A DNA stretch of 29,113 nucleotides, from positions 1 through 29,113 of IMG/VR virus record IMGVR_UViG_3300027985_000592; one strand, 5' to 3'. The stretch comes from a virus. Each line of letters begins with the position of its first letter. The first letter of the stretch is position 1. Of the stretch, positions 24,947-29,035 are shown piece by piece. A program made the position numbers and the translations under genes. Under the pieces are notes generated by a model. That model saw nothing but the letters and a program-made list of their open reading frames with translations, was not told the DNA's origin and did no database searches.

Positions 24947-25088
24947 AAAACGATATCAAAAAATATCAGTGAGCTTTCAAAATCAGGCAAGCGCAGCAAT
25001 AAACAAAATGTTGCAATTGCCTTGGATATGGCTCGAAGATCTAAAAAAAAGAATCAAAGAAAAAGGCGCTGATTATACGATGGAATAA
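24936..25088 (+). CDS. 50-residue basic protein at the end of the late block
   Basis: An ATG at 24936 opens a 50-residue frame with a GGAG at 24922-24925, starting inside the previous gene. The protein is basic and amphipathic, with a central aromatic stretch MLQLPWIWLEDLKKRIKEK. No family is recognised. It ends at 25088 and runs 16 bp into the 3' end of the convergent hydrolase gene, so no terminator separates the opposed blocks. The good ribosome-binding site and the phage-like tight packing argue that it is real; its shortness argues for caution. Confidence 0.5.
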   Translation: MPLKKRYQKISVSFQNQASAAINKMLQLPWIWLEDLKKRIKEKGADYTME

Positions 25089-25771
25089 ACCGGCAGCCCT
25101 GTTATCTTTTCGATTTCTTGTATGAATTGTTTTGGATTGGAATTATCGTCTGATAGATGGATCAGATGGATTTCTTTGGTTCGGCTTAGATCCTGGGCTT
25201 TGAAAAAGCTTTTCACGTTCTCCAGCTCAAAATGGCTCGTCACAATCCTGTCTTTTGTGATCTGCGGCAGCTCCGTGTTTTGCTCTAACAATTCCCGCGA
25301 ATAATTGCACTCCACCATCCAGTGTGTGACTTCTGTAAAATTATACCGTATGTAGTAGGTGTCTGTTGCATAGCAGATCTTTTGGCCGCTGGGCGTTCGG
25401 ATCAGAAACCCTAAAGGCTCGGCTGCGTCGTGCTGGGTTGCAAAGGGCAGGATTGACCAGCCGTTGAAATTAAATTCTTTTTCAGATTCTAAAAGCACCG
25501 GCATGGTATACCAGCTATTATAGTCCAGGTTCTTGAGTGTGCCGGCGGACATGCAGCATGTTATGCCCATTTTCGAAATATCTTTGACGGCCCGGCTGTG
25601 GTCCCTGTGCTCATGGCTTAACAGGCATAATTCGATAGACGAGAGCGTGAAATTTGAACGTTTTTTAAGTTCGGCTATCGGTAGACCGGGATCAATTAAG
25701 ATGCTGTGTGAGCCGTCTCTGATGATGTAGGCGTTGCCTTTAGACGATGAGGCTAAGATTTTAATATTCAA
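25073..25771 (-). CDS. YycJ-like metallo-beta-lactamase-fold hydrolase
   Basis: The 232-residue protein has the full metal-binding set of the MBL fold: SHEHRDH with H53, H55, D57 and H58, then H114 in TQHD, D137 in ATDT and H205 in HLSDDN. The start (LASSSKGNAYIIRDG, then ILIDPGLP) and the MVECNYS and HLIHLS motifs match the YycJ/WalJ group of MBL enzymes, which act on nucleic acids or phosphodiesters. The substrate cannot be told from sequence. The start codon is TTG, inside the upstream gene by 11 bp, with AGAAGG upstream. It is last in the leftward early operon. Possible roles are DNA metabolism or counter-defence (phage Apyc1, an MBL enzyme, destroys cyclic nucleotides), but this is speculation. 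Confidence 0.82.
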   Translation of the reverse strand: MNIKILASSSKGNAYIIRDGSHSILIDPGLPIAELKKRSNFTLSSIELCLLSHEHRDHSRAVKDISKMGITCCMSAGTLKNLDYNSWYTMPVLLESEKEFNFNGWSILPFATQHDAAEPLGFLIRTPSGQKICYATDTYYIRYNFTEVTHWMVECNYSRELLEQNTELPQITKDRIVTSHFELENVKSFFKAQDLSRTKEIHLIHLSDDNSNPKQFIQEIEKITGLPVYSIV

Positions 25772-26078: not shown

Positions 26079-26744
26079 CTAAACACTCTCAAATAAATGG
26101 CTTAATATATTATTGTCAGCTAAAATAGCTATATCCATTTTGTAAGCCTCATTTTTCTTAATGTTTTTCCTTTCATTTTTCATCTGCTCTTTTTTATCAA
26201 AGCTTTTAAGAGTGCTTTGCAAAATTAAGACCCTGTCGTCAATATCATATTTATCAAGCCCATTGGCTAACCTCATTAAATCGGCTTTATATCCCATATC
26301 CCAATATTTTTTCAATGTTTGTTCTTTGATTTTATAGCAACCAAACTCCCTTATCTTTTTAAAAAAATAATCAAAAGAATGCCCTGCGGGAGCATTTTCT
26401 TTTATATTTTTCTTTTCCTTTTCTTTTATATAAGGCGGTAACTCAGGGTTACCACTTGGTAACTGGGAGTTACCGATTATTTTTTCCTCATTCAGATATA
26501 TCTTGCGGCTTTTATACCGCCCTTCAATTTTGATGTATTTCTTGTTTTTAAGCCTCATTATAAGGTTTTTAACATAGTCTTTAGACTCACCTATACGTTC
26601 TCCCATCTGTTCGTTTGTAGGCCATATATGATCGTTTTCGCCCAAATGTATAGAGATACTGATTAAAAGATTTTTTTCGGCATGTGGTAATGTTTTGCGG
26701 TCGATTTTTTGGATGGATTTTATGACTTTGAAAATATTTGACAC
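26079..26744 (-). CDS. Winged-helix replication initiator-like protein (gene O-type)
   Basis: The 221-residue protein starts with GTG at 26744, supported by AAGGAA about 9 bases upstream. Residues 15-85 form a helix-turn-helix of the HTH_36 kind (LPHAEKNLLISISIHLG, then PTNEQMGERIGESKDYVKNL and IKIEGRYKSRKIYL). A Gly/Pro/Asn linker (GNSQLPSGNPELP, about 91-103) is followed by a helical C-terminal domain with FDYFFKKIREFGCYKIKEQ. This layout, DNA-binding N-terminus plus a separate C-terminus, matches phage replication initiators such as lambda O. The linker is encoded by two 17-bp palindromes, the place where O-type origins lie. It leads the leftward operon and lies next to a divergent control region. 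A plain transcription regulator is the alternative. Confidence 0.7.
   Translation of the reverse strand: MSNIFKVIKSIQKIDRKTLPHAEKNLLISISIHLGENDHIWPTNEQMGERIGESKDYVKNLIMRLKNKKYIKIEGRYKSRKIYLNEEKIIGNSQLPSGNPELPPYIKEKEKKNIKENAPAGHSFDYFFKKIREFGCYKIKEQTLKKYWDMGYKADLMRLANGLDKYDIDDRVLILQSTLKSFDKKEQMKNERKNIKKNEAYKMDIAILADNNILSHLFESV
26401..26432. other. AT-rich, strand-biased tract next to the candidate origin
   Basis: The + strand is almost pure pyrimidine plus A/T from 26401 to 26432 (runs such as TTTTCTTTTCCTTTTCTTTT), so the minus strand is purine-rich. It sits 4 bp from the iteron-like palindromes and encodes the Lys/Glu-rich part of the initiator. In lambda the ori has the same arrangement: repeats, then an easily melted A+T tract with purine/pyrimidine asymmetry. 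Confidence 0.45.
26437..26474 (-). repeat. Two iteron-like palindromes, candidate replication origin
   Basis: Two 17-bp palindromes with the form GGTAAC-N5-GTTACC lie at 26437-26453 and 26458-26474. Both arms are perfect in both copies, the spacer bases differ (TCAGG and TGGGA) and the copies are 21 bp apart, two helical turns. They are inside the initiator-like gene and encode its interdomain linker. An AT-rich strand-biased tract lies beside them. This resembles the lambda ori inside gene O, where initiator dimers bind palindromic iterons. Confidence 0.6.
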
Positions 26745-26762: not shown

Positions 26763-26776
26763 GGTTCATGATGAGG
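26763..26776. promoter_or_regulatory. Operator-like site 1 (imperfect)
   Basis: GGTTCATGATGAGG matches the minus-strand reading of site 2 (GGTTCATGATGAACC) at 12 consecutive positions. It lies 19 bp upstream of the leftward GTG start and just before the TTGACA box. It could bind the same regulator as site 2 to control both directions. Confidence 0.45.
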
Positions 26777-26778
26777 AC

Positions 26779-26806
26779 TTGACAATTTCTGCGGAGTTGA
26801 TATCCT
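26779..26806 (+). promoter_or_regulatory. Candidate rightward promoter
   Basis: A perfect TTGACA at 26779-26784 is followed after 16 bases by TATCCT (26801-26806), which has four of six consensus bases. It lies between two operator-like palindromes and before a leader ORF and hairpin. The -10 is weak, so an activator may be needed, or the promoter may be misassigned. Confidence 0.4.
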
Positions 26807-26822
26807 GCGTCTACAATTCGGA

Positions 26823-26837
26823 GGTTCATCATGAACC
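26823..26837. promoter_or_regulatory. Operator-like site 2, perfect 15-bp palindrome
   Basis: GGTTCATCATGAACC has perfect 7-base arms around a central C. It overlaps the Shine-Dalgarno end and the ATG of the leader ORF. Together with site 1, about 60 bp away, it flanks the TTGACA box, an arrangement typical of phage regulator-binding sites. The palindrome might also act as an RNA hairpin, but the loop would be too small. Confidence 0.55.
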
Positions 26838-26845
26838 AACTTTAA
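26831..26845 (+). CDS. Four-codon leader peptide MNQL
   Basis: ATG-AAC-CAA-CTT-TAA is preceded by a perfect GGAGG at 26820-26824 with 6-base spacing. The stop codon lies directly against the 5' arm of the hairpin at 26846. A ribosome on the leader would cover this arm, so translation could decide whether the hairpin forms. Chance occurrence of such a short frame is likely on its own; the perfect Shine-Dalgarno and the position make it worth noting. Confidence 0.35.
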   Translation: MNQL

Positions 26846-26881
26846 GAAAGCCCCAAACTTTGATCGGTTGCTGGGGCTTTC
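26846..26881 (+). terminator. 10-bp hairpin, terminator or attenuator
   Basis: GAAAGCCCCA (26846-26855) pairs perfectly with TGGGGCTTTC (26872-26881) around a 16-base loop. Rightward, the stem ends in GGGGCTTT and is followed by CGCCGTTT, a weak U-tract. Leftward, it is followed by TTAAAGTT. It may stop transcription in either direction or act as an attenuator for the genes from 27088. Confidence 0.55.
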
Positions 26882-27087
26882 GCCGTTTATAAGATACCCA
26901 CCTACATATCACATCTGCACAATAATATACATATCTATTTTAATCCAATAAATCCAATGCTTTAAAAATATTATATTTTTCTTTATTTTTTTGTTAAAAT
27001 ATGTGAAAAATTATTAAAGTTTGTGAAAAATAGGGCGATAATAATATTAACTGAGCGAGATAAACCCCAAATAAAGGAAACTGAAAT
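26882..27087 (+). promoter_or_regulatory. AT-rich control region before the rightward accessory genes
   Basis: This stretch has no gene and is very AT-rich. It holds two AATCCAAT copies (26942-26949 and 26951-26958), a T-rich run near 26977-26995, and two TGTGAAAAAT direct repeats at 27002-27011 and 27022-27031. A TTGTTA at 26991-26996 with TATTAA at 27012-27017 is a weak promoter candidate. AAAGGAA before the ATG at 27088 is the ribosome-binding site. Confidence 0.4.
27002..27031 (+). repeat. Direct repeat TGTGAAAAAT x2
   Basis: The ten-base sequence TGTGAAAAAT occurs at 27002-27011 and again at 27022-27031, 20 bp apart, about two helical turns. The region is AT-rich, so chance is possible, but the spacing and position upstream of the rightward operon suit a regulator-binding pair. 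Confidence 0.4.
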
Positions 27088-27447
27088 ATGAATGGATCAT
27101 ACAAAGAAATAAAATTTGCAGAAGATTTAAAAAGAAAATTTGAAAATGCTTTAAAAGATATTTCTAAAGAAAAGTTTGATGAACTTGTATCCGATCATAT
27201 TGATGAGTACGGCGATGATATTGAAGACTTTTCATATTCAAGATTCAGAAATATGTTTGAATTGATTCAGTCTGTAGAAAGTTCCTATCGATGGATATAT
27301 AATTATAAATATTACAAATTTAATGATAAATTTATCAGGGAGTTTATTAGTAGTGTTGAATTATTCTGTGATGAAGAAGAGTGGATAGATTTCTTAAAAA
27401 TGTGGGGTATTGAAGAAACTGAAGAAAATCTGAAAAAAAGAATTTAA
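27088..27447 (+). CDS. Unknown acidic protein, first of the small accessory genes
   Basis: This 119-residue protein is acidic and helical, starting MNGSYKEIKFAEDLKRKFEN and rich in Asp, Glu, Phe, Tyr and Lys. An aromatic stretch YRWIYNYKYYKFNDKF lies at about 68-83 and the end is Glu/Lys-rich. No family is recognised. It is first in the rightward small-gene operon, just after the AT-rich control region, where phages often carry host take-over or anti-defence proteins. AAAGGAA lies about 8 bases before the start. Confidence 0.65.
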   Translation: MNGSYKEIKFAEDLKRKFENALKDISKEKFDELVSDHIDEYGDDIEDFSYSRFRNMFELIQSVESSYRWIYNYKYYKFNDKFIREFISSVELFCDEEEWIDFLKMWGIEETEENLKKRI

Positions 27448-28989: not shown

Positions 28990-29035
28990 CCATGCCATCT
29001 TTAGAGAATAACCCTAAACTCTAAGGATGGCATGG
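28990..29035 (+). promoter_or_regulatory. 17-bp stem that covers the next ribosome-binding site
   Basis: Bases 28990-29006 pair with 29019-29035 along 17 positions with one T-G wobble, around a 12-base loop. The 3' arm contains AAGGA (29023-29027), the likely Shine-Dalgarno of the gene that starts at 29037, one base after the stem. No U-tract follows, so it is not a typical terminator. In RNA it should block translation until melted or cut. Confidence 0.65.

Follow-up and report, generated by a model that had tools for sequence, protein, structure and literature searches.

The element at positions 26763–26881 of the virus record IMGVR_UViG_3300027985_000592 (29,113 bases, the whole of which is referred to here as the window) is, as we hold with moderate confidence, a small-RNA locus of the oop-like kind that belongs to the replication module of a podovirus of the P22-like type, and its plus-strand RNA would lower or time the expression of the neighbouring replication initiator. 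The element probably serves as a small RNA that adjusts replication of the phage; a role as a switch for the genes on its right is improbable. The left part of the window carries packaging and head genes, including those for a terminase (PF04466) and a portal protein with mostly P22-like phage relatives. In the right part, a minus-strand block consisting of a metal-dependent hydrolase gene (25073–25771), a small gene and an O/DnaD-like replication initiator gene (26079–26744; profiles phrog_270, 6.9e-8, and phrog_345, 3e-7) is followed by small plus-strand genes from 27088, the first of which (27088–27447) has no assigned function. Further to the right, a strong inverted repeat (CCATGCCATCTTTAGAG / CTCTAAGGATGGCATGG, 28990–29035) lies just before a signal-peptide-like ORF which resembles the gene at the matching place in the related phage G001.

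All features described in a previous sequence-only reading of this stretch were found by direct reading of the window. The TTGACA box does lie between the sequence GGTTCATGATGAGG (O1, 26763–26776, no strand), which equals the left half-site plus the centre of a palindrome, and the perfect palindrome GGTTCATCATGAACC itself (O2, 26823–26837, no strand). The box is the −35 element (26779–26784) of a plus-strand promoter whose −10 element TATCCT (26801–26806) is separated from it by 16 bases and preceded by TG (extended −10). With a consensus score of 10/12, this consensus match (26779–26806) is the top plus-strand promoter-like site of the intergenic region, and the RNA start is predicted at about 26812–26814. 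The Shine-Dalgarno sequence GGAGG (26820–26824, plus strand) belongs to the four-codon ORF MNQL* (ATG AAC CAA CTT TAA; 26831–26845, plus strand). Palindrome, GGAGG and ORF had been read as following one another; all three are present but not in this order, as GGAGG shares its last two bases with the start of the palindrome, which also contains the ATG. The plus-strand hairpin (26846–26881; arms GAAAGCCCCA at 26846–26855 and TGGGGCTTTC at 26872–26881, loop of 16 nt) has a stem of 10 bp in the window and 12 bp in the relatives, and its first stem base directly follows the MNQL stop, as had been noted. Beyond it lie a C-rich, G-poor stretch of the plus strand (26882–26951; 17 C, 4 G), which is a candidate Rho-loading site, and a consensus match on the minus strand, TTAACA-16-TATAAT (26970–26997), which is the predicted promoter of the initiator mRNA. 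An AT-rich direct repeat with two copies of a 20-bp unit (TTGTTAAAATATGTGAAAAA, 26991–27030) may belong to an origin or to divergent promoters.

The palindrome by itself is unremarkable within the window and proves nothing: three perfect 7+1+7 palindromes were seen versus about 1.8 expected (29113/4^7). Of 100 shuffled sequences, 34 contained two near-matches to GGTTCATNATGAACC with at most 3 mismatches. No other perfect 10-bp stem with a loop of 3–20 exists in the window, and the fold of the 88-nt RNA beats 200 of 200 shuffles (z −3.1). We judge the element to be beyond chance because it recurs at the equivalent place in three other phage contigs. The earlier proposal of a hairpin able to end a short RNA, together with a promoter and an operator-like palindrome, is supported. 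Conservation and position of the element, covariation and strand preference of the hairpin, and pairing potential were all computed.

In each of the four contigs (the window, G001, L101 and L175, the last being part of the record G016), the element is located immediately upstream of an O/DnaD-like initiator gene and reads away from it; the initiator equivalents of the relatives were recognized by profile. G001, which is represented by the same sequence (L086) in a sister sample, was reached by a terminase search (78% identical terminase). We take it as complete because it has a 141-base direct terminal repeat, and its element lies immediately 5′ of the G001 initiator gene. L101 was reached by a promoter-plus-palindrome scan; its hydrolase–initiator block is arranged as in the window and the adjoining tail-type genes differ. 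L175 was reached by a hydrolase search. It retains the promoter position and the hairpin but lacks the palindrome, in place of which it has a different ribosome-binding site (AGAAAGGG; GGAGG in both G001 and L101). The promoter motif is TTGACAA..TGATAT in G001 and L101 and TTGACT..GATATT in L175, whose plus-strand promoter is weaker (TTGACT, spacing 15, 9/12). Since L175 keeps promoter position and hairpin without the palindrome, which is thus confined to three of the four members, the conserved unit consists of promoter, start site and hairpin, tied to the initiator. All four members have a ribosome-binding site with a start codon, and the short ORF that opens there is MNQL* in the window, MNQV* in L101, 46 codons long in G001 and 16 codons of a different sequence in L175.

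The initiator-protein search of viral contigs produced no relatives, DNA searches of phage records gave nothing useful, and the loop-plus-arm pattern search retrieved no additional member. The palindrome is absent from the 14 terminase relatives other than G001, and the RNA model found no strong match in these 14 or in two hydrolase relatives. The pattern GGAGGTTCANNATGAACC occurs in 37 other viral stretches, all without promoter and hairpin. G001 also carries an IS607-like recombinase with a TnpB-like gene (L085:3369–4986) and a second TnpB-like gene (L085:8577–9671); the IS607-like element, which was followed as a clue to the host, matched nothing in plasmids.

Across the members (alignment A8), 97.8% of the pairs of the 12-pair stem are kept, whereas the slid-register controls reached at most 59%. 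Three stem pairs are changed on both sides in a compensatory manner, and in each of the five cells with a change on one side only, the plus strand has a G-U pair where the minus strand would have an A-C mismatch. Because of these compensatory changes and of the G-U pairs favouring the plus strand, the plus-strand RNA fold appears to be what selection sees, the evidence being modest with about four independent changes in four members. Conservation of the hairpin region as protein-coding sequence was considered and dropped, since indels shift the frame between the phages. No Rfam family reached the gathering threshold for the RNA, and a covariance model recovered the four members from which it was built and no other strong match among the sequences scanned.

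The identity of the hairpin as a classical terminator was also dropped: the d'Aubenton-Carafa-type scores of the element hairpins range from −30 to −15 (d −30 in the window), compared with +7 for P22 oop and +13 and +21 for the terminators of a second locus described below. In every member, the 70 bases 3′ of the hairpin are rich in C and poor in G (top 1.3–2.1% of windows in each, the sequences being related and not independent tests) and would suit Rho termination. The plus-strand RNA probably ends at the hairpin or in the C-rich stretch just beyond it. A predicted RNA of about 70 bases, remarked on in the sequence-only reading, is the best-supported part of its interpretation, which as a whole is partly supported. 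In L175, a further hairpin (L175:684–733) consists of a 10-bp inverted repeat and seven T's ending at the initiator start codon, covers the Shine-Dalgarno sequence and, being directed towards the initiator gene, has the score of a classical terminator (d +19.7).

It had been proposed that a ribosome stopping at codon 4 governs read-through to 27088. More generally, the promoter could serve the genes from 27088 onward as a leader or attenuator, with translation of the short ORF and the hairpin or, in a Rho version, the C-rich stretch setting the read-through. We consider this unlikely, and control of read-through as the main role was not supported. Promoter and genes do share a strand, the start site with a Shine-Dalgarno sequence is found in all four members, and a weak-terminator hairpin followed by C-rich sequence would permit conditional read-through. 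The varying ORFs speak on both sides. The equivalent ATG of G001 opens 46 codons which run through the hairpin and across the C-rich stretch, as a Rho version could use, but the stop-to-stem spacing changes along with ORF length: the abutment of stop and stem is kept, besides the window, only in L101, and the ORF of L175 ends in the hairpin loop. As neither the ORF length or peptide nor the stop-to-stem distance is kept, the main prop of leader-coupled read-through is gone; judging from the members compared, translation initiation may be selected, and the peptide and the distance would not be. Moreover, the downstream genes differ between the phages and start 130–480 bases off, and each phage has other plus-strand promoter-like sites, though weak consensus matches, between the hairpin and the plus-strand genes. 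The plus-strand RNA has two compatible hairpins, and no pairing alternative to the conserved one was found in it.

In the oop-like reading that we prefer, the extended −10 promoter (26779–26806) would give rise to a plus-strand RNA from about 26813, which would pass the ribosome-binding site and the very short ORF into the hairpin (26846–26881). All four members have a minus-strand TATAAT (a consensus match) on the right-hand side of the hairpin, and the initiator mRNA probably starts there (26997–26970 in the window). With the predicted minus-strand promoter beyond the hairpin, the plus-strand RNA would be antisense to the initiator mRNA leader, and pairing between the two would lower or time initiator expression. 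The palindrome is placed where a repressor could block the promoter of the plus-strand RNA, and its opposite-strand copy (O2′) would be able to pair with O1 beside the Shine-Dalgarno sequence of the initiator. We infer the production of the RNA, its ends and the initiator promoter; the regulatory effect, as well as its direction, is proposed by analogy with the lambda, P22 and plasmid systems. What speaks against the oop-like reading is that a ribosome-binding site and a start codon recur, which would be needless for a pure antisense RNA, that the terminator score is weak, that the promoter of the initiator is recognized by consensus alone, and that there are only four members.

In the minus-strand RNA, O2′ pairs with O1 over 11–12 bp (12 bp in the window) at a site adjoining the Shine-Dalgarno sequence of the initiator, just 5′ of which the minus-strand form of O1, UCAUCAUGAACC, is located. 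The duplex has −18.5 to −18.8 kcal/mol in all three phages with the palindrome (P ≤ 0.0005 versus shuffled O1); in L175, the corresponding place is taken by the terminator-like hairpin described above. The centre TCA is changed to CTA in both O1 and O2 of G001, and O1 retains only the half that is required for pairing with O2′. O1 would therefore, as far as its sequence indicates, be no less consistent with a pairing arm of the opposite-strand mRNA than with a second operator. The claim of two operators is supported for the O2 palindrome, as an operator-like site, and not for the upstream copy, which is one half-site plus the centre only, and a protein operator pair is possible.

Control of the promoter by a protein, i.e. 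by a host regulator (e.g. LexA) or a phage repressor acting on O2 (and O1), with the O1/O2 similarity due to protein binding and not to RNA pairing, seems doubtful to us. A perfect palindrome at the predicted start site in three phages, the joint change of the centre triplets in G001 and the LexA-binding sequence in lambda pO (PMC5869508) are consistent with it. However, O2 is missing from L175/G016 and O1 is one half only. The palindrome had been suggested as a repressor target to be sought elsewhere in the genome; its single copy in the complete relative G001 argues against a self-regulating phage repressor, and a multi-site phage repressor was dropped on the same grounds. In bacterial genomes, promoter plus palindrome gave 31 matches versus about 39 expected by chance, none of them like the element, and with matches at the chance level neither a host nor a host regulon can be named. 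A two-sided replication switch, in which O2′ in the initiator leader would choose between its own hairpin and the 11–12 bp stem with O1 and the antisense RNA with its ribosome-binding site and mini-ORF would decide, its ribosome loading reporting the state of the cell to replication initiation, is in our opinion improbable.

The initiator genes of all four phages contain phage-specific internal repeats in a similar place: two palindromic repeats GGTAACT-N-GTTACC in the window (26436–26475), which are candidate origin iterons, GGTWAATCACCATTAACCTTTT three times, one of them inverted, in G001, 33-base tandem copies in L101 and TTTTGCAWATACGCAAAAA in L175. In lambda, the origin is contained in gene O (PMC6022878). 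An initiator gene with such internal repeats and the AT-rich repeats adjoin the promoter, and lambda pO matters for replication with OOP RNA not being the primer, according to a review (PMC12197685), but we find it very improbable that promoter activity near the initiator and origin merely opens the DNA or interferes with initiator transcription while the RNA is inert, since the compensatory changes and plus-strand G-U pairs point to selection on the RNA fold.

A second locus (B) was found in G001 (L085:5600–5802) and in G016 (L264:1530–1717), in both cases on the minus strand. A promoter of the element's type (ACTTGACA..GATATTTC) is accompanied there by a hairpin and by AAAAGCCTGGTC..GACCGGGCTTTT, a strong terminator. 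The locus is located upstream of a second replication-like gene, is directed away from it and would by its appearance yield an independent RNA some 170 bases in length. These second genes are only weakly assigned to replication (E about 0.0006 to 0.005). It appears to be usual in these phages for a replication-like gene to have an independent RNA that reads away from it, and we count locus B in favour of the oop-like reading. The loop motif CTTTNNNCGG is present in locus B of G001 but not in that of G016 and was not used as evidence.

If the oop-like reading is true, the element represents a new phage regulatory RNA family, absent from Rfam, in uncultured P22-like phages, and the layout with oop next to the initiator recurs where neither sequence similarity nor a cII-like target exists. 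The RNA start site, the concerted changes in O1 and O2 and the different sequence that stands in for the palindrome in L175 would provide a handle on direct action upon the initiator itself, a question which for lambda oop has been overshadowed by the action on cII.

Among the known systems, leader-peptide attenuators of the trp or erm/cat type resemble the element in having a promoter, a Shine-Dalgarno sequence, a very short ORF and an adjoining hairpin, but here there is no codon theme, no competing hairpin pair and no masked downstream ribosome site, and the ORF is not conserved. The antisense RNAs of plasmid rep systems (R1 CopA, pT181, IncB/I-alpha types) are likewise stem-loop RNAs opposite the leader of an initiator mRNA, whose start is predicted here, and share the pairing alternatives of the leader near the Shine-Dalgarno sequence; some of them are paired with a repressor protein (PMC5717011). 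The present element differs in belonging to a phage and in that its antisense action is only predicted, and an O2 palindrome and an ORF on the antisense RNA are atypical of the plasmid systems. The oop RNA of lambda and P22 lies just upstream of the initiator gene and points away from it (PMC5869508, PMC12197685, PMC13397905), and that of P22 is 63 nt long (PMC13397905). Sequence similarity of the element to either is lacking (local alignments did not exceed those of shuffled sequences, P 0.41 and 0.66), the predicted initiator leader and not a cII/c1-like gene lies opposite the element, the hairpin is no classical terminator (d −30 in the window versus +7 for P22 oop), and a ribosome-binding site with a mini-ORF is present on the RNA. 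An operator-like sequence is found at the promoter in lambda as well, where it is a LexA site (PMC5869508), whereas the palindrome described here is not a known LexA box. As in lambda and P22, a short promoter-to-hairpin RNA, predicted here, is situated just upstream of an O-type initiator gene and reads away from it, the initiator gene holds repeats (origin repeats in lambda, candidate ones here), and the RNA would overlap the upstream part of the initiator mRNA. By this analogy, the element would not be oop but would work like oop.
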